A stretch of DNA of 23,215 nt from a virus. The notes beneath the pieces were generated by a model. It saw only the letters and a list, made by a program, of their open reading frames with translations, was not told the DNA's origin and ran no database searches. The first letter of the stretch is position 1; the number at the start of each line of letters is the position of its first letter. The translations under genes were made by a program, and so were the position numbers. The stretch covers positions 1-23,215 of the IMG/VR virus record IMGVR_UViG_3300035663_000112. One strand, written 5' to 3'. Below are positions 2,933 to 20,845 of this stretch, in pieces.

Positions 2933-5900
2933 TTAAACGTTATAATAAACAATTTCACCTGTTGTTGGGTTATAATAAACCACTTTCAAACCTGTTACAT
3001 CTGTTACTGCTCTAACAGGTTTTACGGTAAATGTATTAGCAGTGGTTTGGTTTAGGTTTGATCCTGATGCATTTAATATAATGGTATTAACTGCTTGGTT
3101 GGTGTAACCTGCATTTGCACCAATTGCAATACTAGTTGCACCTTGTCCTGTATAACCTGCATATGAACCGATAGCAATCGTATTTGCCCCAGGCACCCCA
3201 CCACGCTGCGCATAAGTACCCATACCAATACTGTCTGCACCTGTACCACCTGTTCGACCGACTTCAAAACCAATCGCTATAGAGTTTGCTGCGATAGCTG
3301 CAGTAGAGTTAGCTGCTACGTTAGTACCAATACCAATAAAGTTATTAGCAATAGTAGGTGCAGCAGAGGCAGAATTCTTACCTAAAACAATCATACCATC
3401 AGCACTACCTGCTGTTGCACCAATGTTTGCACCTGCAGATCTACCCATGAAGATTGAGTTTGCTGCTGCATTAGAATTTTGTGATGCAAGATAACCAATT
3501 GCAATACTATCTGTAGCAAGAGAACTTTCACCTGCTTGTGCTCCAATAGCGATTGCACGTGTTACTGATGCAGCAACCGTTGAGTTATTAGCTTGTGCCA
3601 ACGTACCAATAGCGATGGTGTTGGTGCCTGGGCCTTTGGTGGAGGATCCAATTGAAATTGCATTAGTTGAACTAGCACCCGCTAAAAATCCTATACCAAG
3701 TCCTGCTGCACCCGTAGATGCACCATTACCAATTGCAATACCGTTACCTGTACTTGATGAGTTCATACCAAGTGCGACAACACCACCTGAACTGATGTTT
3801 ATAAGGTTTGCATCTCTATTAGCATTGGTATATGCTCTAATATTTCCCTGAAAAATAATAGGTGTAGTACCTGAATTATAATTAGCTACTACCACACTAT
3901 TTACAGTCACTGTGATATTACCGTTTGCTGATAAGACTGCAATATTACTATTAGCATTACTTATGGATGATCCACCACCTCCACCACTTACTGTTCCCCA
4001 ATAAGTAATACCATTACCGTATGTTGTCAATACTTGTCCGCTTGTACCATCAGTGTTTGCATAAGTTACTGCGCCTACTACTATAGGATTTGTAGTGGTT
4101 GTTGCAATAAAGTTAGCTGTATTACCAACTAGTTCTAAATTAATACCTAAATTATTAACATTGGCATTGCCACTAAAGTTAGCTGTATTCCCAACTAGTT
4201 CTAAATTAATACCTAAATTATTAACATTGGCATTGCCACTAAAGTTAGCTGTATTCCCAACTAGTTCTAAATTAACTGTTAAGTTTGGTAGAATAACATT
4301 GCCACTAAAATTAGCAGTATTACCCGCAATATCTAATTCAACTTGAACATTACCTGCAAAATTAGAAAGTGTATCAGAAATTTCTACTCTATTAGCAGCA
4401 CCTGCTACAGAAATTGTAACATTAGTATTAGCTGCAATTGAAACATTACTATTACCATTTTGTACTGTTGGTGTTTGAACACTGTCCAAAATAGCATTAC
4501 CTGCACGAATATTAGCTAACGTATTGAAGCTTATTACTTCGTTAGCAATACCAACGTCTGATCCAAAAGAAATTTCTGCATTGCTTACATCCCAACCCAT
4601 CCAAGCAACTTTTGCTGCTGTATCAAAATAATTTAATGCGGTACCAACATCTTTACCACTATTACTTGCAGGTGCTGCACCATTTGGTCCCATTTGTAGT
4701 TGAATAATAGGATCTTCAATTGCCAAATCTTCAACATTGACATAAACTAAATTACCATCAACTGTTAAATTACCTGTAATTAAACTATCACCTGTAACAC
4801 TAATGCCTGTACTTGAAATAACTAATACATTTGCAGTACCACCCACGCCAATTTCAACGTTAGCATCGGTAGTAGGTATAGATACATTACTTGTACCATT
4901 TGATATAGTTGAACCACCCGATAATACATCATATGATATTTCACCTGATGTACTGTCATAATACATTACATTTGACGTACTTGCTTGACGAACAGGTTTA
5001 ACCGTAAAACTGTTATTGTTGGCTGCAAAAAGATTAGCACCTGTAGCATTTAATACAATAGCATTAGATAAATCATAAACTCGTGCATTAGCACCTATAG
5101 CAATAGAATCGCTTCCATTGACATTTGCATTAAGACCAATAGCAATAGAATTACCCGAACCTGCATTTGCTCTTCCAATTGCTATAGAGTTTGCACCGCC
5201 AGCAGTAGCAACTCTTCCCAATGCAACTGCATCACTACCTTCGGCTGCAGGACCAAATCCAATTGCAATTGATTCTGAACCTGCTGCACCAGTGGCAGTG
5301 CCCGAACCTATTCTTATGCTATTATTACCTGTAGCATTAGTATTATAACCTATAATTATTGCATTTGCAGCATTAGCGGTTACAAGTGAGCCTATAGAAA
5401 TTGAATTATTACTATTAGCATTAGCACGATTTCCTATGGCTATTGCGCTAGTTGCATAAGCATTAGGATTTGCTCCTATCGCTATAGTCCCTGCTAAATC
5501 TGCGTTAGCATTTTGACCTATACTAATAGATTGACTACCATTTGCTTTAGCGTTAGTACCAATCGCTACTCCACTAGCCCCGCTAGCAATTGCAGCATTA
5601 CCCAATCCTATTGTATTAGCTGCATTTGCTACTACACTTCTACCAATACCGACAACACCATTGGAATATAAGTTTAATAAATTACCAACTAAATTACCAC
5701 CTGCTGCAACACGAAATACGTTAGCTGTACCATTTACGCTGAAATCTATATTACCTGCAGCAGTTGAAATACTTACATTACTATTACCGTTAGCAATATT
5801 TGAACCACCACCTCCACCTGATACGGTTGACCAATAAGTTATTCCGTTACCATAAGTAGTTAAAACTTGTCCATTTGTGCCATCTGCGTTTGCATAAGTA

Positions 5901-6319
5901 ACTGCACCTGCAATAACTTTTCCTGTAACATTAGCATTACCTGCAATGTTTGTATTTGCATCACTAATAACAACAATATTTGGAGTACCATTAATACCTA
6001 CAGTAACATTACCACCTGATGTAGCAATACTAACATTTGATGTACCATTGGCTATATTAGATCCACCACCCCCACCACTAACAGTACTCCAACTAAGAAT
6101 ACCACTACCATCCGTGGTTAAAACTTGACCGTTTGAACCACCTGTAATAGATACATTTGCAACTGCACCAAGATTTGCATACTTAGTTATAGAAATATTT
6201 TGACTTGAATCAATAGTTAATGCATTGCTGCCACTAGTTTGTATCGCAAGGTTTCCTGTATTATCACTTGATAGGATAAAACCATTTGCATTACCTGTTG
6301 AGTTAAGAGTTACTGCCAT
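2933..6319 (-). CDS. YadA-like trimeric tail fibre / adhesin, two-module
   Basis: A 1128-residue protein, rich in Asn, Gly, Ala and Ser, almost without Cys or Trp. Two stretches, about residues 215-430 and 855-1090, each contain roughly 14 copies of the left-handed beta-roll motif of YadA/Hia heads (SIAIG, AIAIG, SISIG at 14-25 residue spacing). Each stretch ends with the same cap, FTVKPVR followed by YY(D/N)-x-(T/S)-(T/S)-GEI. Each is preceded by a similar SNVSI beta segment and by a GQVLTTYGNGITYW block. Between the modules lies VEDLAIEDPIIQLQMG with KDVGTALNYFD, a segment I associate with tail fibres of marine T4-like phages. The start is preceded by AAGGAA at good spacing. No membrane-anchor barrel is seen, so this is a phage fibre rather than a bacterial autotransporter. 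Likely role is host binding; receptor unknown. Confidence 0.85.
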   Translation of the reverse strand: MAVTLNSTGNANGFILSSDNTGNLAIQTSGSNALTIDSSQNISITKYANLGAVANVSITGGSNGQVLTTDGSGILSWSTVSGGGGGSNIANGTSNVSIATSGGNVTVGINGTPNIVVISDANTNIAGNANVTGKVIAGAVTYANADGTNGQVLTTYGNGITYWSTVSGGGGGSNIANGNSNVSISTAAGNIDFSVNGTANVFRVAAGGNLVGNLLNLYSNGVVGIGRSVVANAANTIGLGNAAIASGASGVAIGTNAKANGSQSISIGQNANADLAGTIAIGANPNAYATSAIAIGNRANANSNNSISIGSLVTANAANAIIIGYNTNATGNNSIRIGSGTATGAAGSESIAIGFGPAAEGSDAVALGRVATAGGANSIAIGRANAGSGNSIAIGLNANVNGSDSIAIGANARVYDLSNAIVLNATGANLFAANNNSFTVKPVRQASTSNVMYYDSTSGEISYDVLSGGSTISNGTSNVSIPTTDANVEIGVGGTANVLVISSTGISVTGDSLITGNLTVDGNLVYVNVEDLAIEDPIIQLQMGPNGAAPASNSGKDVGTALNYFDTAAKVAWMGWDVSNAEISFGSDVGIANEVISFNTLANIRAGNAILDSVQTPTVQNGNSNVSIAANTNVTISVAGAANRVEISDTLSNFAGNVQVELDIAGNTANFSGNVILPNLTVNLELVGNTANFSGNANVNNLGINLELVGNTANFSGNANVNNLGINLELVGNTANFIATTTTNPIVVGAVTYANTDGTSGQVLTTYGNGITYWGTVSGGGGGSSISNANSNIAVLSANGNITVTVNSVVVANYNSGTTPIIFQGNIRAYTNANRDANLINISSGGVVALGMNSSSTGNGIAIGNGASTGAAGLGIGFLAGASSTNAISIGSSTKGPGTNTIAIGTLAQANNSTVAASVTRAIAIGAQAGESSLATDSIAIGYLASQNSNAAANSIFMGRSAGANIGATAGSADGMIVLGKNSASAAPTIANNFIGIGTNVAANSTAAIAANSIAIGFEVGRTGGTGADSIGMGTYAQRGGVPGANTIAIGSYAGYTGQGATSIAIGANAGYTNQAVNTIILNASGSNLNQTTANTFTVKPVRAVTDVTGLKVVYYNPTTGEIVYYNV
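4111..4274 (-). repeat. 66-nt tandem repeat inside fibre gene (2 copies plus a partial)
   Basis: Unit 4111-4176 is repeated at 4177-4242 with a single base difference, and the first 32 bases recur at 4243-4274 before the sequence diverges. On the minus strand each unit encodes 22 residues containing GNTANFSGNANVNNLGIN and LELV. Because 66 is a multiple of three, copy-number change would keep the reading frame and would change fibre length. Confidence 0.95.
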
Positions 6320-9161: not shown

Positions 9162-10478
9162 CTATCTAAACATTGGTCCTTCTATCCAAGTAACTAAAGA
9201 GTATCTAGTACCTGATTTAATTGGTGTAACTTCATGTGGCATAAAACTCGGAAACAAATGAACCGAACCTTGCTCATTTGAAGCTCTTATATGATTAGTA
9301 TAATTGTTAATAACTAATTCACATCCTGTATATGTATTTGGATCACTAAGTTGCACTACTACCGATATTTTTCTAAAAGCAAATGGGCCTGGACCCACAT
9401 CAACGTGTGAAATGTAATGCCCATTTTCACCATTATTGTTTGTTTCATATTCAAGTAATTGAAGGTAAGGATTGATACCCCATATATCATAGTTAAAATG
9501 TTTATGATTGGCAAAATTAACAATTAAACCTAATTTATGAAAAATCCATCGATTAGAATCGTTATTATGCACTGCATAATTATTAGCTGCACGTATCTTT
9601 GCAACATGTTTATTAGCATTACCAACTTTTGCTGAATCTCCATAGGTATTAGAGATTAGCGCAATAATTGACTTGCATTCTTCTTTTGTAAAAGAAATTT
9701 CAGAAGCATTGCTTGGAGTGCACCCGAAATAACTTGGTAACTCACGTGGTAAAGAAGGTAACATAACATAATCAAAAATTGGTGTAGGAATATCTATACT
9801 AATTTTTTTATTGTTTGCTATAGGTTCATCTTCATATAACTTGTATGAATCTTCAACGATAGATTTTCTTTTATTATCTGCAATAATAGGTTTTTTTAAA
9901 TTGTTTTGAGTAATAGTATTTTTTTCTATGCCTAATTGTGATCTTTTATCTAATACATATTCTGTGTATGGACCATCAGCATCAACATAATGTAAAAAAA
10001 CTTGTACTTGCCACGTGCCTTTGTATTTTGGTCGCCAATGCGTAACTTCACAACCTTTGTATACAAGCAAATCACCAATGTCTAAATTTAATTTAATTTC
10101 TTTTTCTTCATCAACATATATAGGCCAAACAACTTTTCCATCAAAGCCTAAGGTAATAGTGGCACTAATTTCACAAGAAGGTCTATCTACATGTTTTTTT
10201 AGAATTTCATTTGGTCTATAAATTCTTGCGTATGTATACGTTGGTAATAGTTTTCTTCCAACATGTTTTCCTATTGGATCTGCTAATTCACTTAACAAAT
10301 TATCAAATACTTTATCACCATAAACAGCATCTGACAATGGGCATTGTTCATCTTTAACCGTCTTATTATTTTTATGTAATTCAAACATGTGATTAACTAA
10401 CTCAGTACATGATTCTGAATCTAAAGCATTACTTAAAACTACATACCCATTGTTTTCAAAATAACTAATCGTATCCAT
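9162..10478 (-). CDS. Tandem two-domain Fe(II)/2-oxoglutarate oxygenase
   Basis: A 438-residue protein joining two double-stranded beta-helix oxygenase domains. Domain 1 (about 1-185) begins FENNGYVVLSNALDSESCTE, as in PhyH-like enzymes, and has H96-x-D98 and distal H147. Ten residues beyond H147, where the 2-oxoglutarate-binding Arg/Lys normally sits, there is Q157. Domain 2 (about 235-438) is prolyl-4-hydroxylase/PiuC-like. It has H358-x-D360 in YISHVDVG, distal H415 in FPSFMPHEV, and R425 with S427 in GTRYSL, which is the full set. The domains are joined by a Lys/Asn-rich linker (about 186-230). The start is preceded by AAGGAAAG. It follows the sulfotransferase by 12 bases, so the two are probably one message. 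Such enzymes hydroxylate protein side chains, lipids or nucleic acid bases using O2 and 2-oxoglutarate; the substrate here is unknown. Confidence 0.85.
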   Translation of the reverse strand: MDTISYFENNGYVVLSNALDSESCTELVNHMFELHKNNKTVKDEQCPLSDAVYGDKVFDNLLSELADPIGKHVGRKLLPTYTYARIYRPNEILKKHVDRPSCEISATITLGFDGKVVWPIYVDEEKEIKLNLDIGDLLVYKGCEVTHWRPKYKGTWQVQVFLHYVDADGPYTEYVLDKRSQLGIEKNTITQNNLKKPIIADNKRKSIVEDSYKLYEDEPIANNKKISIDIPTPIFDYVMLPSLPRELPSYFGCTPSNASEISFTKEECKSIIALISNTYGDSAKVGNANKHVAKIRAANNYAVHNNDSNRWIFHKLGLIVNFANHKHFNYDIWGINPYLQLLEYETNNNGENGHYISHVDVGPGPFAFRKISVVVQLSDPNTYTGCELVINNYTNHIRASNEQGSVHLFPSFMPHEVTPIKSGTRYSLVTWIEGPMFR

Positions 10479-10490
10479 TACTTTCCTTTT

Positions 10491-11324
10491 TTACTCATCT
10501 AATACTTCAGGATAAAAATATTCAAAGTACCATTTATTTTCTTTAATTACTTTATTATGAAAATTATCATCAAGGATTCGATTAGGCTTTGAATATTCTC
10601 TAAATTCTGTATAAGTTTCATGACTTACTTTTTCACGAAAATAAGAATGGTCGTGTTCAAATAAAAATGATTGATCAATTTTATTTAAATTATGATTAAA
10701 ATAATCAAGATCTAAAAATTTATAGATAACTTTTATAATTTTATTTGGATCAGCGGTAAAATCTTCATATCTAATAAACAATACTTTGCGTGGGTCTTGA
10801 TTATAAAGTTCTAGTGATTTAGGTATTTCATGATTCAATGTTACTGACAATGAATTAGGTTCGCCAAAATAATATTTAAATTTTTCTAACCAATGCATTC
10901 CCATAGTTACGATTCCACTAGAATTATAAGTGTGTAATGCTTTAAATTTACGGTTTACTCGTTCAAAACTTTCTACAATGTCACGTAAATCTCTAATTAC
11001 ACATATGAACTTTGATTGAGGATAAAGGTGTAATAATGATGACCATCCATGCCTTTTTGATATTACAATTGGTTTATCAGTAAGTGCTTCAAACCACCCC
11101 TTTGTCCCACCTTGAATTAAACCATATGTTGCAATATCTGCTTGTTCACTTGACATCGCAATAAATGATTCCTGCTGTCTTACTCGTACAAGTAGTTTAT
11201 CTTTTATTATATCGTATAAAGCACATGTACTCGTAGTAAAAATCTGCGGGTTTTGTTGCAAAATATTCATTAATATTGTACTACCCGATCTTGGTAGTCC
11301 ACCGCAAAAATGTATTAATTCCAT
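10491..11324 (-). CDS. Sulfotransferase (PAPS-dependent)
   Basis: A 277-residue protein with the two nucleotide-binding signatures of the sulfotransferase family. The 5'-phosphosulfate loop is GGLPRSGSTILMNIL (residues 8-22), and the 3'-phosphate site is VIRDLRDIVESF, with R111 and S119 eight residues apart as in known enzymes. Further support comes from KVLFIRYEDF at 180-189 and from the usual single-domain length. The enzyme moves sulfate from PAPS, supplied by the host, to a hydroxyl or amine on a glycan, protein or small molecule. The start must be close to residue 1, because the P-loop begins at residue 11. There is no visible ribosome-binding site, and a TATAAATA box ends only 5 bases upstream. 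It is followed at 12 bases by the double oxygenase, suggesting linked action. Confidence 0.88.
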   Translation of the reverse strand: MELIHFCGGLPRSGSTILMNILQQNPQIFTTSTCALYDIIKDKLLVRVRQQESFIAMSSEQADIATYGLIQGGTKGWFEALTDKPIVISKRHGWSSLLHLYPQSKFICVIRDLRDIVESFERVNRKFKALHTYNSSGIVTMGMHWLEKFKYYFGEPNSLSVTLNHEIPKSLELYNQDPRKVLFIRYEDFTADPNKIIKVIYKFLDLDYFNHNLNKIDQSFLFEHDHSYFREKVSHETYTEFREYSKPNRILDDNFHNKVIKENKWYFEYFYPEVLDE

Positions 11325-14423: not shown

Positions 14424-15635
14424 TTACTGAAATGATACGTTCTGTACAGCAATCTCGCCAACGTAGTCAGCAGCATTACCAAAGCTTGATGCTGTATTGG
14501 TAAGCTCAACATAACCATAACGTGTCATGAAGCTAACTACAGGTTCGAATGTTGTTGGATCTAGAACAACACCACTGCTCATCAATGGAATGTATGGGCA
14601 ATAGAATGCTGCTGCATCTGTCTCGCTTGAACCCTTATAACCAACCAATACTGCTGTACCTGTTGGAGCATATGAGTCAACGAAAACACGCATTGCGTTA
14701 TTCAATGTACCAACAAACTTAGTGTTTGTAGGTGCTTCGAATGTACCTTCAGTGGTACGTGCAAATGCTGATGTTGTTGCACTTTGGAGAATTGTTAAGC
14801 TTTCGCTTGAAACAACTGCCCAATTACCTGCGCCACGGCGTGTACGCTGTGCAATCAAGTTAGCAACACGATTGATCAATACTGCTAATGCTGCATGCTC
14901 ATCACCTACGAATGTTGCAGTACCTGAAACGGTTGCTTGATTGTATGTGAATTCTGTTGCAGCTAAACTACGCAATGAAAGAAGAATTTCTTGGTCAATT
15001 TCAGCAGTAATTTCTTGTGCTAAAGCTGCCATGATTTCTGCTTCAACGTCGATACCATGTTGTGACTGTGCATCTTGTGCAGCCTCAAATGTCCAACGTG
15101 CTTGCAACTTACGTGACTTAGCTTCAACAGCCTGACGTAAGATCTGTACGCTGATTTGGCGACCACCACTACCTTCAAGAACGCTTGTATCAGCAGCAGT
15201 ATAACGTGACTGATTTGTGTTAACAACACCTGCAGTAACGCTGCTTGCTGAAGAATATGCTTGCGCAATCTTGAATGGTGACAATGCTTCTTCACCTGCT
15301 ACTGTGCTTGTTTGTGCAGCACTTGTATCGTTCATGTTATTAGCATAACGAACACGTAGTGTGTGAATTTGTCCAACAGGACCTGTCATTGGCTGAACAC
15401 CTACCAACTCATTAGCGATAACGGTTGGCATAACACGGCGGATAACGGGAAGAATAACACGGTTAAGTGTTGCAATGTTACCTGCTGTAGTTGTACCTGC
15501 TGAACTTTCAGCAAGTAACTGCTTGCGAGTGTTTTCAAGAATGACACCCATCATTGAACGGCGAGTTCCTTTGAGACCTTCTAGAAGGGCTTCTTTTGTT
15601 TCACCCCAACGGCTCTCTAATAATACTTTAGACAT
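14424..15635 (-). CDS. 23: Major capsid protein gp23
   Basis: A 403-residue homologue of T4 gp23, the hexamer-forming shell protein. Support comes from the segment RVILPVIRRVMPTVIANELV followed by GVQPMTGPVGQIHTLRVRYA, the hallmark of this family, and from the end FMTRYGYVELTN. The N-terminal 43 residues form the helical delta domain; LLAE at 40-43 fits the gp21 cleavage pattern ((I/L/V)-x-E), so the mature protein probably begins at S44. At 403 residues it is well short of the 521 of T4, so insertion segments of the T4 protein are missing. It is the last gene of the capsid operon, 30 bases after gp22, with AGGAGATAAAGGA before the ATG and a strong terminator behind it. Codon usage looks more GC-rich than in the fibre genes, as expected for a highly expressed gene. 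Confidence 0.95.
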   Translation of the reverse strand: MSKVLLESRWGETKEALLEGLKGTRRSMMGVILENTRKQLLAESSAGTTTAGNIATLNRVILPVIRRVMPTVIANELVGVQPMTGPVGQIHTLRVRYANNMNDTSAAQTSTVAGEEALSPFKIAQAYSSASSVTAGVVNTNQSRYTAADTSVLEGSGGRQISVQILRQAVEAKSRKLQARWTFEAAQDAQSQHGIDVEAEIMAALAQEITAEIDQEILLSLRSLAATEFTYNQATVSGTATFVGDEHAALAVLINRVANLIAQRTRRGAGNWAVVSSESLTILQSATTSAFARTTEGTFEAPTNTKFVGTLNNAMRVFVDSYAPTGTAVLVGYKGSSETDAAAFYCPYIPLMSSGVVLDPTTFEPVVSFMTRYGYVELTNTASSFGNAADYVGEIAVQNVSFQ

Positions 15636-16826: not shown

Positions 16827-16851
16827 AGTTGAAATCATTTTAATTTCAACT
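16827..16851 (-). other. Hairpin across the gp21 stop codon
   Basis: A perfect 9-bp inverted repeat (AGTTGAAAT / ATTTCAACT) with a 7-base loop spans the gp21 stop at 16837-16835. Only a short TTTAAT follows on the minus strand, so it is a poor terminator. It could affect message processing or stability between gp21 and gp22. Confidence 0.45.
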
Positions 16852-17479
16852 CCTTAATTAGGTTTACTACGGATTCTTTTAAATACTTTTGAACCTGAGC
16901 ATCCTTGTCTAACTTGCTACCTTTTAAATTCTCTAAGACACGATGACCACCTTTCATGTTCATCAATCCCTCATAGATAGCCTTTGGATATGCATTAGGT
17001 GCACTTGGCTGTGCAACTATATCTACCGTTACAATTTCAAAATCACTAACACGACCATTCATGTCATTAACATTGCCACTGCCACGACTAGATACACCTA
17101 ACTTAACACCGCTCTCTAACATCGTAGATACTAAATTACCCATAGGTGTAGGTAATATTTTTAACTTACCATAACCATTGGGTCCATCCATCCACATGTT
17201 TACAATCATGTGAGATACACGATCTAAGTTAATCTTTAAATCATCAGGATGATCAACTTCACCTAGAACACTGTATCCCTCACTAATTTGACCGTTAAGC
17301 GTTTCTACTGCACGTTCAATTTCATCAACAGGATATACACGCTCATTAGCATTCTTTACGCCACCCTGTATGAAAATACCTTTCATATAAAGTGCTTTGG
17401 TTTTTTCATCACCCTCTTTGACAGACTCGACAATTAATCCCGCTCTGTCAAAGGTTAGATGTTCACGTAAATATGCCAT
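16835..17479 (-). CDS. 21: Prohead core protease gp21
   Basis: A 214-residue serine protease, matching the length of T4 gp21 (about 212). Visible landmarks are GEVDHPDD (H77), the GVSSRGSG loop (S130/S131, with one as nucleophile) and IVTVDIVAQPSAP (D153). These correspond to the His, Ser and Asp regions of the herpesvirus-like prohead protease family. It cleaves gp22, gp23 and core proteins after Glu during capsid maturation, and processes itself. It begins 13 bases after the gp67-like gene, with AAGGAT before the ATG, and is followed by gp22. Confidence 0.94.
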   Translation of the reverse strand: MAYLREHLTFDRAGLIVESVKEGDEKTKALYMKGIFIQGGVKNANERVYPVDEIERAVETLNGQISEGYSVLGEVDHPDDLKINLDRVSHMIVNMWMDGPNGYGKLKILPTPMGNLVSTMLESGVKLGVSSRGSGNVNDMNGRVSDFEIVTVDIVAQPSAPNAYPKAIYEGLMNMKGGHRVLENLKGSKLDKDAQVQKYLKESVVNLIKELKLK

Positions 17480-17492
17480 TGTACTTAAATCC

Positions 17493-18344
17493 TTAGCGTA
17501 CTACTTTTTTAACAGATTTTTTACTCTCTGCTACAGGACTACGCTTGTCAGATGCTGCATCCTTTGTTACAGGCTTTGGTGTTGATTCACCTTTTTCGCT
17601 AAAAGATGAGCCTGGTGCGTTCTTTACACCACTGATTAAATCACCACCCTGCTTTACATATCCCATGTTGGCTTTTGGACTTGTTGGTACAGTCTCATCA
17701 CCACCACCTGAGAAATTTACAGGACCTGCACCTGTTTGGACAACTTTAGGCTTGGTTAAAGCAGGACTCTTGGTGTTAGAACCATCATCACCACCTTTGG
17801 CAAATTTGTCATAAGTTGCACCACCTACTTGCTTAAGAGCAATAGCTTCAGCAACCATGCTTTCACCTTCTTCTTCCTCTTCTTCGCCTTCTTCCTCTTC
17901 TTCTTCACCCTCTGAACCCATCATTGCTTCAAATTCAGCAATAAGTTCATCAAGCTTATCTTCTAAATCTTGAATGTCACCCTTGGTTGCAGGTGCTTCT
18001 TCATCACCACCCATGTCACCCATGTCATCCATATCCATGTCAGCAGCATCTGCATCCATATCTGCAGCATCCGCATCCATGTCAGCAGCATCAGTGTCAA
18101 AGTCCATGTCTTCAATTTCATCTTCTTCTTCACCTGCTTCCATCATGCCATGCATACCTGCTTCTTCAGTTTCGATCTCATCTAAAAGATCTTCTGACAT
18201 GTCCTCATGCATTTCTTCATCCATAAGGCTTTCGTAAATCTCACGTGACTTCTCAACTACAATCTCGTGAAACAATTGTTCTGCTCGCTCTTGGTCCTCA
18301 TTAATAATGAGATCAATCAGCTTTTCAAATTTTGCTGTAGACAT
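17493..18344 (-). CDS. Acidic prohead core protein, gp67-like
   Basis: A 283-residue, very acidic protein. The N-terminus (KFEKLIDLIINEDQERAEQL, then FHEIVVEKSREIYESL) resembles the short helical start of T4 gp67 (LI..I...D...A..LF.E), which is likewise followed by an acidic run. Residues 84-104 are three copies of (T/A)DAADMD, and residues 143-161 are nearly all Glu/Gly. The C-terminal part (about 175-283) is Gly/Ser/Pro/Lys-rich and basic at the end, with no T4 gp67 counterpart (80 residues). MVAEA at 163-167 fits the gp21 cleavage pattern, which would separate the acidic and basic halves. Position directly before gp21 supports a core role. A strong AAGGAG ribosome-binding site precedes the ATG. 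The assignment to gp67 rests on position and composition. Confidence 0.7.
   Translation of the reverse strand: MSTAKFEKLIDLIINEDQERAEQLFHEIVVEKSREIYESLMDEEMHEDMSEDLLDEIETEEAGMHGMMEAGEEEDEIEDMDFDTDAADMDADAADMDADAADMDMDDMGDMGGDEEAPATKGDIQDLEDKLDELIAEFEAMMGSEGEEEEEEGEEEEEEGESMVAEAIALKQVGGATYDKFAKGGDDGSNTKSPALTKPKVVQTGAGPVNFSGGGDETVPTSPKANMGYVKQGGDLISGVKNAPGSSFSEKGESTPKPVTKDAASDKRSPVAESKKSVKKVVR
18033..18095 (-). repeat. 21-nt tandem repeat, three units
   Basis: Encodes (T/A)DAADMD three times within the acidic core protein. On the plus strand it reads as GCATC(T/C)GCATCCAT-type units. Confidence 0.85.
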
Positions 18345-18358
18345 TTAATATATTCTCC

Positions 18359-18394
18359 TTAGGTAAATGGCTTGTGCTTAATTTATTTACCTAA
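18359..18394 (-). promoter_or_regulatory. Inverted repeat next to the ribosome-binding site of the capsid operon
   Basis: Perfect 10-bp arms TTAGGTAAAT (18359-18368) and ATTTACCTAA (18385-18394) with a 16-base loop. The proximal arm includes two bases of the AAGGAG at 18360-18355 that precedes the gp67-like gene. A folded leader could partly hide the ribosome-binding site. Confidence 0.5.
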
Positions 18395-18542
18395 TATGCT
18401 AGAAAATATGCCTAAAAGTGCTATTTTTTTACGTTTTTGTTTGAAATATAGCGTTTTAAGAAAAATTTAAACTATTCTATATTTTAAAATACCTTTATTA
18501 CTTATCTTAATTTATTTTATATTGGGCGGGGCGTCGCTGGTC

Positions 18543-18635
18543 AAAGGCATTTGATAGCACACCCCCATTTAATCAATGTGCTGAAAACCCCACCCCCTAT
18601 TAAAGCCTTTATTACCCCCCATGGTTTTCAACACA
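18543..18635. other. GC-rich structured patch with G tracts on the minus strand
   Basis: The minus strand has G runs at 18620-18615 (6), 18597-18593 (5), 18591-18588 (4) and 18566-18562 (5). Complementary segments include AAAGGC/GCCTTT (18543-18548/18605-18610), TTGAT/ATCAA (18551-18555/18572-18576), AGCACA/TGTGCT (18556-18561/18577-18582) and TGAAAACC/GGTTTTCA (18582-18589/18623-18630). Some of these cross, so not all can form at once. Confidence 0.55.
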
Positions 18636-18665
18636 TATCGTTTTTAAATATAAATTAAAAAAAAC

Positions 18666-18722
18666 ATTTTTATGTATTTCTGTGAACTGACGAAGGAAGT
18701 GAACAAAGAAATACATAAAAAT
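18666..18722. repeat. 16-bp perfect inverted repeat
   Basis: Arms ATTTTTATGTATTTCT (18666-18681) and its exact complement (18707-18722), with a 25-base spacer that contains GTGAAC twice. The right arm overlaps the T tract of the adjacent terminator. Confidence 0.85.
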
Positions 18723-18745
18723 AGATGACCGTACTACGGTCATCT
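18717..18745 (-). terminator. Terminator after the portal transcription unit
   Basis: On the minus strand a 10-bp stem (AGATGACCGT with ACGGTCATCT) and a 3-base loop are followed by ATTTTT. It lies about 100 bases after the stop of the small gene. Confidence 0.85.
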
Positions 18746-18846
18746 TCAAATGATTACTCTGACTTTGTGAGAATTAGCCACGCAAAAAAGAGAAATTTAG
18801 CTCTAAAATAAAGAGCAATTAATTCGTTATGTGTTTACTTAAAAAT

Positions 18847-19071
18847 TTATAATCCACCTTCAGGTGTAGGTGGAGCATATTGCTGTCTAATTTTTTTCAA
18901 ATTTTCAGCTTGTTCATAGGTACGAACTTCTTTCATTCGACGAATTTTATTAATCGCTCCTAACGTTAAACCTTTGGTTTTACGTGAGTCACCCCAACGT
19001 GGTTGACTATGATCATCTTCCACATCTTGCATACCTTTGGGTGCTGCATTATAAAATTCAAATAAGTGCAT
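18847..19071 (-). CDS. Small basic protein downstream of portal, unknown function
   Basis: A 74-residue protein, MHLFEFYNAAPKGMQDVEDD onward, with a basic middle (RKTKGLTLGAINKIRRMKEV) and the end APPTPEGGL. A longer reading frame extends upstream to 19122 but overlaps the gp20 end; the ATG at 19071, 13 bases after the gp20 stop, is the natural start. It lies where T4 carries gp67, but it is basic rather than acidic, so it is not a gp67 look-alike. It may be an assembly or core-associated protein; I do not recognise it with certainty. Confidence 0.7.
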   Translation of the reverse strand: MHLFEFYNAAPKGMQDVEDDHSQPRWGDSRKTKGLTLGAINKIRRMKEVRTYEQAENLKKIRQQYAPPTPEGGL

Positions 19072-19084
19072 AACTTTATTTATC

Positions 19085-20845
19085 TTATACGTTAGGTGGT
19101 GCAGGTGGTATCGCTGCTCCACCCGCTGCCTCAGGACCTGCTACAGGTGCACCAACTTCAGCAGGTTCACCTTCGATCTCATCTTCTGCATCCATATCAT
19201 CAGCAGTTTCAAGATCTTGTTCAATATCACTTGTTGATATACCAACACTGCGTAAATCACTGCCTTTAGCCTCAACTTCAGCAGGTTTAGAACGTTCTTC
19301 TTCCCATAACTGCTCGTTTTTCTTGATTTCTTCTTGTGTTAATCCTAAGAATCGCTCTAAACAAAAACGTGTACTCATATATGGCAACGCAGCCATCGTA
19401 CCAAATGTATTAACACGTGCAGTATCTAACTCAGCTTGACGATAACTAGCAAAGTTTTGTGGCTCATTGAACTTAATATCAAACAAACCACTATCAATAT
19501 TAAAACCACGCCAACGTAAGAATAACTTAAATTCTTCACTCATCTTACGTGCAATATATCCCTGTAATCGTTCACAATACTTGTTAAAACGAAACTCCTG
19601 AATCATTGCAGTACCAACACGACCATCATTTAATGGTGTGGTTTGATCATCAGGACCTGTGGGCAAATATGAACTAGGTATGCGTAAACCACGTGCTAAA
19701 CGATTGTTAAAATACTTTAAATCATCAATTTCACCTAGGTTTTGACCACCTGGGAGTACTTCGACACTACTTCCTCTACCTTCAGCAGTAGTTGGAAAGA
19801 AATAATCTTCATTAATAGATAATGGATTATAAGTTGCATCTAATACATTACTACCACCATGTACACTAGGTATTCTACGTTGATGTATCTCATCTTTAAT
19901 ACGATTGACAAATTGCATTGCTAAATGTGAAGGCATATTACCCACATCAATCTTAAATACCCTGCGCTCAGGTGCACGTTGTACACGATAAATTAATATC
20001 GCATCTTCTAATAATTCTTTTTGTTTGTATACTTTAAAGATATTCTCTAAGATACTTTGTCCAAAAGGCCAATAACGATCTAATCCTTCAGTTAATGATA
20101 GATGCACGATATGCTTAGCATCTAGTGCACTCTCATTGATACCAAGCGTAAATCTAGTTCCTGTTGATCCATAAGGTTCGTTTGGCACCGTATATGAATA
20201 TGGCGCACTATAACCTGCAGTTGGAGGTTGTGCTTGAAAGTCTGTAGTAGTTTTTTCAGCAATGGTTAAATTTTGTAAGTTAGGATTGATATCTTTGATA
20301 ACATATTGCTCAGGCTTCTTACCTTCAGTTTCATTAACAATGACTTTAACCACTTTAGTCATGTCAATCCAATATAATTTAAAGTTTTCAGGATCACGAA
20401 CAAATACCTGATCACCATACTTTACCGTATTTCTAAAGATTTTAAACGTTCTAGTATCAAACTCGTTAAGTTTACACCATTGTTGTAACTGTTTTTTAAC
20501 TAATTCTACCTCAGTATCAGTAGGGTCATCATTCCAAGTAATCTGAAATGGTGTACCATTTTGTTCATTTGACTGTGTACTAAATTCACTAAGAATATCC
20601 AAACAAGCATTAATTTCAGGATCAACATCCATCATTTCATATTGGTTATAACGCTCAATACGGTTTGGATGCCCTGTATATACCTCAGGTAAACGACTTT
20701 GATAATTGCGAAAAGCAAAATCATTGGTCCAACCACCCGTAGGTTCTTGTCCCATACCACCATTCCACGCACCATTGTTACTATTTCCACCACTAATTGG
20801 GGATAATGCACCGTGAAAATTAGAGAATTTCTTTTTATAAGCCAT
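19085..20845 (-). CDS. 20: Portal vertex protein gp20
   Basis: A 586-residue homologue of T4 gp20, the dodecameric portal at the unique capsid vertex through which DNA is packaged and to which the tail attaches. Typical features are RYNQYEMMDVDPEINACLDI near residue 65, the segment TFKIFRNTVKYGDQVFVRDP, the helical LLEDAILIYRVQRAPERRVF, and PGGQNLGEIDDLKYFNNRLA with LRIPSSYLP, which are characteristic of this family. The C-terminal 70 residues are acidic, then Ala/Pro-rich (GAPVAGPEAAGGAAIPPAPP), and make the protein longer than T4 gp20 (524). It starts 14 bases after the tape-measure-like gene; no obvious ribosome-binding site, so translation may be coupled. Confidence 0.95.
   Translation of the reverse strand: MAYKKKFSNFHGALSPISGGNSNNGAWNGGMGQEPTGGWTNDFAFRNYQSRLPEVYTGHPNRIERYNQYEMMDVDPEINACLDILSEFSTQSNEQNGTPFQITWNDDPTDTEVELVKKQLQQWCKLNEFDTRTFKIFRNTVKYGDQVFVRDPENFKLYWIDMTKVVKVIVNETEGKKPEQYVIKDINPNLQNLTIAEKTTTDFQAQPPTAGYSAPYSYTVPNEPYGSTGTRFTLGINESALDAKHIVHLSLTEGLDRYWPFGQSILENIFKVYKQKELLEDAILIYRVQRAPERRVFKIDVGNMPSHLAMQFVNRIKDEIHQRRIPSVHGGSNVLDATYNPLSINEDYFFPTTAEGRGSSVEVLPGGQNLGEIDDLKYFNNRLARGLRIPSSYLPTGPDDQTTPLNDGRVGTAMIQEFRFNKYCERLQGYIARKMSEEFKLFLRWRGFNIDSGLFDIKFNEPQNFASYRQAELDTARVNTFGTMAALPYMSTRFCLERFLGLTQEEIKKNEQLWEEERSKPAEVEAKGSDLRSVGISTSDIEQDLETADDMDAEDEIEGEPAEVGAPVAGPEAAGGAAIPPAPPNV

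Follow-up and report, generated by a model that had tools for sequence, protein, structure and literature searches.

Comparison with related loci indicates that the non-coding interval 18345-18846 of the window, which is the entire 23,215 bp virus record, is composed of two joined parts: the conserved leader of a prohead-core operon and an insertion specific to one phage species. We consider it quite probable that the interval is a terminator/late-promoter junction that has been enlarged by an insert carrying a relocated block of two elements, a double hairpin (E1) and a G-rich block (E2). The initial annotation described the interval as one structured unit. Its structured double hairpin is upheld, but it overlooked two points: the last 114 nt contain a promoter, a leader and a ribosome-binding site that are all conserved, and the remainder is a lineage-specific insertion.

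The interval is situated in a minus-strand late operon. It spans 502 nt between an ORF stop at 18847 and an ORF start at 18344 and contains no plausible gene, which bears out the proposed non-coding stretch of about 500 bases in the late region. It is flanked by a small ORF (18847-19122; phrog_13986) and by an acidic ORF encoding a prohead-core protein (17493-18344), and the same minus-strand operon includes genes for a gp20-like portal (19085-20845), a gp21-like protease (16835-17479), a gp22-like protein and a gp23-like major head protein (14424-15635). On the basis of head and portal proteins, the closest isolates are the T4-superfamily jumbo phages Vibrio phage 2.275.O, Sinorhizobium phage Phosso, Pseudomonas phage PA5oct and Agrobacterium phage Atu_ph07. 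About 150 related loci, all of them fragments, were gathered through searches with the portal and protease proteins of the window.

Several other minus-strand genes of the window have recognizable features. A partial ORF at 1-357 contains LHRSQAHRG and HRKHH histidine boxes and looks like a fatty-acid desaturase. The ORF at 383-2914 matches a phage protease family (phrog_3677) and carries the GTSAACP motif typical of subtilisin-like proteases. A large ORF at 2933-6319, with SIAIGxxA-type repeats as in the head domains of trimeric adhesins, probably encodes a tail fibre or decoration protein. The adjacent ORFs at 9162-10478 and 10491-11324 look like a 2-oxoglutarate-dependent oxygenase and a sulfotransferase (GLPRSGST start). 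Apart from the protease match, these putative identities were taken directly from the sequence.

The composite nature of the interval is apparent from its relatives. Gene order is the same in 110 distinct relatives, but in these just 83-153 nt separate the small ORF from the core gene. Among relatives, a 502-nt gap is found only in L165, an independently assembled member of the window's species that is 99.93% identical over 7.2 kb and identical across the interval. In four clade mates (L001, L002, L084, L166; about 85-95% identical nearby), the stop of the small ORF is directly followed by the last ~110 nt; their leaders measure 109-134 nt and the insert is absent from the portal/core junction. 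Because all four make this jump, approximately 390 bp of the minus strand (about 18457-18846) can be identified as an insertion confined to the window's phage species. The remaining 114 nt (18345-18458, minus strand) match more than 80 related loci by blastn and occur at the same place in the clade mates that lack the insert.

The leader is strongly conserved across the 111 distinct sequences that were extracted and aligned. Its minus-strand consensus comprises AAAAACGyAAAAAA, a hairpin of the AGCAC-TTATT-GTGCT type, TTTT, TAA[A/G]TA, ACAAAGCCATT, AGGAG and ATG. The TAA[A/G]TA core is present in 111/111 distinct leaders, 34-68 nt 5' of the ATG. It reads TAAATA in the window (18384-18389, minus strand; context GGTAAATA), and TAARTA also precedes other late ORFs there; a TATAAATA-like motif with a TAAATA core before late genes is what characterizes T4-type late promoters. 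These promoters are dependent on gp55 and gp45 and initiate transcription approximately 6 nt downstream. The transcript is accordingly predicted to start at 18378, which corresponds to the A of ACAAAGCCATT in the consensus and lies 3 nt before ACAAGCC in the window. Column conservation delimits a leader motif, ACA(A)AGCCATT (18366-18375, minus strand), at or a few nucleotides from this predicted start. A search for TAARTA-N(3-22)-AGCCAT in about 2 Mb of strand sequence yielded 98 hits inside leaders and 3 elsewhere (98/101). As a separate observation, ACAAAGCCATT (window 18366-18378, minus strand) lies where the prohead-core mRNA is predicted to begin, is kept in nearly all 111 relatives and is almost absent elsewhere in the loci. 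A ribosome-binding site for the core-protein gene (17493-18344), AAGGAG at 18355-18360 on the minus strand, is evident from its sequence, and more than 90% of relatives keep AGGAG.

Just upstream of the promoter is a residual intrinsic terminator hairpin, AAAATAGC-ACTTTTAG-GC(A)TATTTT (18403-18427, minus strand). While many of 107 relatives carry perfect AGCAC-TTATT-GTGCT-TTTT hairpins, this element is weak in the window's clade: its folding energy is -3.3 kcal/mol in the window, against a median of -7.0 in those 107 relatives. In the clade mate L002 the hairpin is just as weak (-3.3) although the insert is missing, which shows that the portal/core junction does not require a strong terminator. 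A further hairpin, GGTAAAT..ATTTACC, extends across the promoter and is confined to the window's clade.

The insert carries the tandem double hairpin E1 (18666-18745, minus strand), in which hairpin A (18723-18745) directly abuts hairpin B (18666-18722) and a T8 tract lies at 18657-18664. Hairpin A consists of AGATGACCGT-AGT-ACGGTCATCT followed by ATTTTT (minus strand, 18745-18723) and is the sole terminator-like match in 18300-18900. Hairpin B is a 16-bp perfect inverted repeat whose 25-nt spacer contains GTGAAC twice. The initial annotation had correctly picked out both the terminator and the repeat. Hairpin B is the only inverted repeat in the entire window with arms of at least 13 bp and a spacer of at most 40 nt, and inverted repeats with arms of at least 15 bp were found in none of 20 Markov-1 sequences. 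Both A with ATTTTT and B with T8 present the arrangement of an intrinsic terminator, namely a stable hairpin and then a U-rich tract in the transcribed direction. A hammerhead-like CTGACGAAG in the loop of the 16-bp repeat was rejected by eye; the rest of the core is missing and the string is absent in homologues.

Homologues of E1 are located at one other place in the related genomes. By BLAST, the window's own species carries a second, diverged copy (L165 990-1074; 72%, E 3.5e-8) and L002 carries another (73%, E 1.4e-10); L166 contains E1 and E2 jointly (1285-1510), in the same order and orientation as the window. All three copies are at a junction where a nuclease-like gene converges on a small ORF and a gp26-like gene, gene names that reflect our reading of sequences and gene order rather than database calls. 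A query with the gp26-like protein gave one locus only, and the junctions were hence drawn from loci already gathered. In nearly all relatives, this junction has two directly abutting hairpins soon after the stop of the small ORF, usually followed by a T-rich tail, and E1 homologues were recognized there in about 25 relatives. At both loci, E1 faces the same way with respect to the genes upstream of it (A, then B, then the T-rich tail). In some native copies, hairpin B is not followed by a strong U tract. When 1.56 Mb were scanned, such tandem hairpins turned up chiefly at the gp26-like/nuclease junction, and at the portal/core junction in the window's species only.

The pairing of these hairpins is preserved despite sequence divergence. 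In the aligned homologues, 143/144 cells pair in the A stems (18 distinct) and 120/126 in the B stems (21 distinct), with many both-side changes; some rows were picked by pairing, which makes these cell counts lean upward, while position after the stop codon was fixed independently. When the partner is slid, pairing drops to about one quarter to one half. The alignment of relatives that had been recommended as a check for covariation has thus revealed compensatory changes in both E1 stems, with the structure kept in about 20 distinct sequences. On this basis, E1 is most likely an intrinsic terminator that was relocated between two operon ends, in either direction, and that now ends portal-operon transcripts. 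The suggestion of a structured RNA accordingly holds for the double hairpin but not for the G-rich part, and the likely role is termination rather than that of a riboswitch-like or catalytic RNA.

The same neighborhood in jumbo T4-superfamily phages contains a second structured RNA of about 380 nt, located between the nuclease-like gene and the gp26-like operon (L013:884-1264, L025:921-1292, L049:614-982 and eight other loci; related region in L165:475-1083 and L166:773-1300). Its 11 sequences share 76 predicted pairs, 37 of which have both-side changes. It received no support as a tRNA, tmRNA or Rfam family from Rfam or ARAGORN and looks like a new large RNA class.

Sequence comparison demonstrates the conservation of promoter and leader, the insertion, and the homology of E1 and E2 to another locus; the functional steps that follow are inferred. 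The junction would separate a portal operon (gp20-like portal and small structural protein) from a prohead-core operon (acidic core, gp21-like protease, gp22-like and gp23-like proteins). Transcripts of the portal operon may pass hairpins A and B in turn and end at the U8 tract behind them. Termination at E1 would insulate the late promoter at 18384-18389 from upstream transcription, with E1 perhaps taking over from the weak ancestral hairpin, although the case of L002 speaks against a need for such a replacement. The block of E1 and E2 may have arrived by non-allelic or inter-phage recombination.

The second element, E2 (about 18531-18640, minus strand), has a GC content of 49% amid DNA of 4-33% GC. 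It includes an inverted repeat (18623-18635 / 18577-18589) and the four minus-strand G tracts noted previously, which are at 18620-18615, 18597-18593, 18591-18588 and 18566-18562. E2 is 81% identical to L166 1301-1443, where it likewise follows E1 in the same orientation. No other copies were detected in 39 records or in pattern scans. Scans of viral contigs returned 10, 12 and 3 stretches, of which only those in L165 and L166 were related, a scan of one genome returned none, and blastn against E. coli genomes gave no match. Searches of phage and plasmid collections with the interval or the insert by blastn were also without match. E2 most likely rode along with E1.

One alternative is that E2 works as a non-coding RNA in its own right or as a cis-acting RNA switch, either by itself or together with E1; the pairings TGTGTTGAAAACC:GGTTTTCAGCACA and GCACA:TGTGC, which exclude each other, would then be its alternative states. 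We regard this as unlikely. The element is GC-rich amid AT-rich DNA, it is 81% conserved with L166 with its long inverted repeat mostly kept, and G-U pairs improve two helices on the minus strand. However, E2 folds no better than shuffles (z -1.03; 29/200 shuffles as stable). On either strand, the interval as a whole is more stable than its shuffled versions (z -4.3 and -5.8), and given that E1 reaches z -7.07 compared to -1.03 for the G-rich part, this excess structure does not reside in the G-rich part with its crossing segments. The crossing complementary segments reported earlier do exist in the window sequence, but in L166 CCCCGCCC is absent and both AAAGGC:GCCTTT and GCACA:TGTGC are broken, such that neither the crossing nor the alternative pairings persist there. 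The long inverted repeat is kept in L166 by unchanged letters, and its conservation is therefore uninformative; two copies of E2 are in any case too few for a covariation test. Rfam was searched with both the window and the interval, at the gathering threshold and more permissively; nothing passed the gathering threshold and the interval gave only chance-level matches, so that the window matches no curated covariance model of a riboswitch or other family. Furthermore, no promoter is recognised within the insert and E2 is downstream of the terminator at both loci.

A second alternative places E2 in transcriptionally quiet DNA between terminators, as may be inferred at both loci, and makes it a DNA element, for example a replication origin, a recombination or packaging signal, or a G-quadruplex. 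Its sequence is more conserved than its structure and G runs are retained. Nevertheless, such a role is very unlikely. Origins and packaging signals should be general, yet E2 is present in only two related phages, and its position differs between them; the roles of replication origin and packaging site suggested in the initial annotation are unsupported. For a recombination site, nothing supports the strict sense of the term, though some form of recombination did bring the insert in. A G-quadruplex would be expected to have four tracts of at least three Gs with short loops that are kept in homologues. The window's loops measure 17, 1 and 21 nt, the first and last of which exceed the usual range, and L166 has three G runs of at least three compared to four in the window.

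The portal/core region is a repeated site of gene uptake. In the isolates Atu_ph07 (L208 7918-10405) and Phosso (L209 7862-10766), additional genes separate the small ORF from the core/protease genes, and several contigs (L031, L034, L042, L049) have an extra 600-900 bp between the portal and the small ORF.

The insert might in turn be a decayed gene or decayed homing element, a reading that we consider extremely improbable. The uptake of genes at this junction in Atu_ph07 and Phosso is consistent with it, as is the lack of a homologue for two parts of the insert: E0 (18746-18846, minus strand), an AT-rich stretch with only weak matches among related records, and the leader-proximal flank. Against this, no frame of the insert matches protein-coding stretches in related loci, and both recognisable modules, E1 and E2, are non-coding in L166 too. 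More than one frame matches L166 simultaneously, which is what similarity at the DNA level would produce. A conserved peptide encoded by E2 was likewise rejected: in the window a stop interrupts the frame MGGNKAINRWGDFQHI... of L166, and the matches are again spread over several frames.

Our preferred account, a conserved junction enlarged by a relocated block, implies that a regulatory block can shift between operon ends within the most conserved head-gene cluster of giant T4-type phages, in which gene order is otherwise fixed. It also defines two family-wide elements, a late leader starting with ACAAAGCCATT and a double-hairpin terminator. A bolder proposal is that E1 and E2 form a mobile regulatory cassette of jumbo T4-superfamily phages, with a covarying double-hairpin terminator and a functional G-rich element, that moves between operon ends and rewires head-gene transcription; this is speculative and we find it doubtful. 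E2 would be a new phage element if functional; otherwise, its presence reflects ordinary genome rearrangement.

The junction has parallels in characterized phages. In PA5oct, which has the same layout with mass-spectrometry-supported neighbours, a 105-nt gap contains the hairpin GGGGCATAAATGCCCC-TTTTTT (GGGGCAT..ATGCCCC-T6), then GATATAAATA, a TATAAATA promoter. Vibrio phage 2.275.O has a hairpin and TATAAATA, and a hairpin with a T run directly before the promoter is common to the window and both phages. The T4 late promoter consensus is TATAAATA at -13 to -6 and that of Aeh1 is CTAAATA (PMC1524935). The TAAATA of the window resembles both, and late promoters with an upstream terminator link it to T4, Aeh1, S-PM2 and PA5oct (PMC1524935; PMC2984593). 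T4 itself differs in that genes 20 and 67 overlap and leave no gap, whereas the window's junction holds the 390-bp insert.

Two further comparisons clarify the nature of E1. PeSLs, cassettes that combine a promoter with a terminator, have been proposed as mediators of shuffling in T4-like phages (PMC4503421, citing Arbiol et al. 2010 and Comeau et al. 2014) and offer the closest precedent for a block that moves. As outlined in that source, they are similar in that an intergenic stem-loop terminator adjoins a promoter and occurs at more than one place in related T4-like genomes. They differ in that PeSLs, according to the same outline, involve early promoters and shuffled gene regions, in contrast to the window's late promoter, conserved head operon and promoter that predates the insert. 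No stem-loop terminator coupled to an early promoter was found in the interval, where sigma-70-like matches number 2 compared to 3.2 expected from shuffles. E1 resembles Rho-independent terminators, with its GC-containing hairpin A followed by ATTTTT and its hairpin B followed by T8. It is distinct from them in comprising two abutting hairpins that are conserved as a pair, the second of which is AT-rich with a long structured loop in the window's clade. Neither late promoters nor intrinsic terminators are new in kind; what is new is the arrangement, with a relocated double-hairpin block inside a head-gene cluster.
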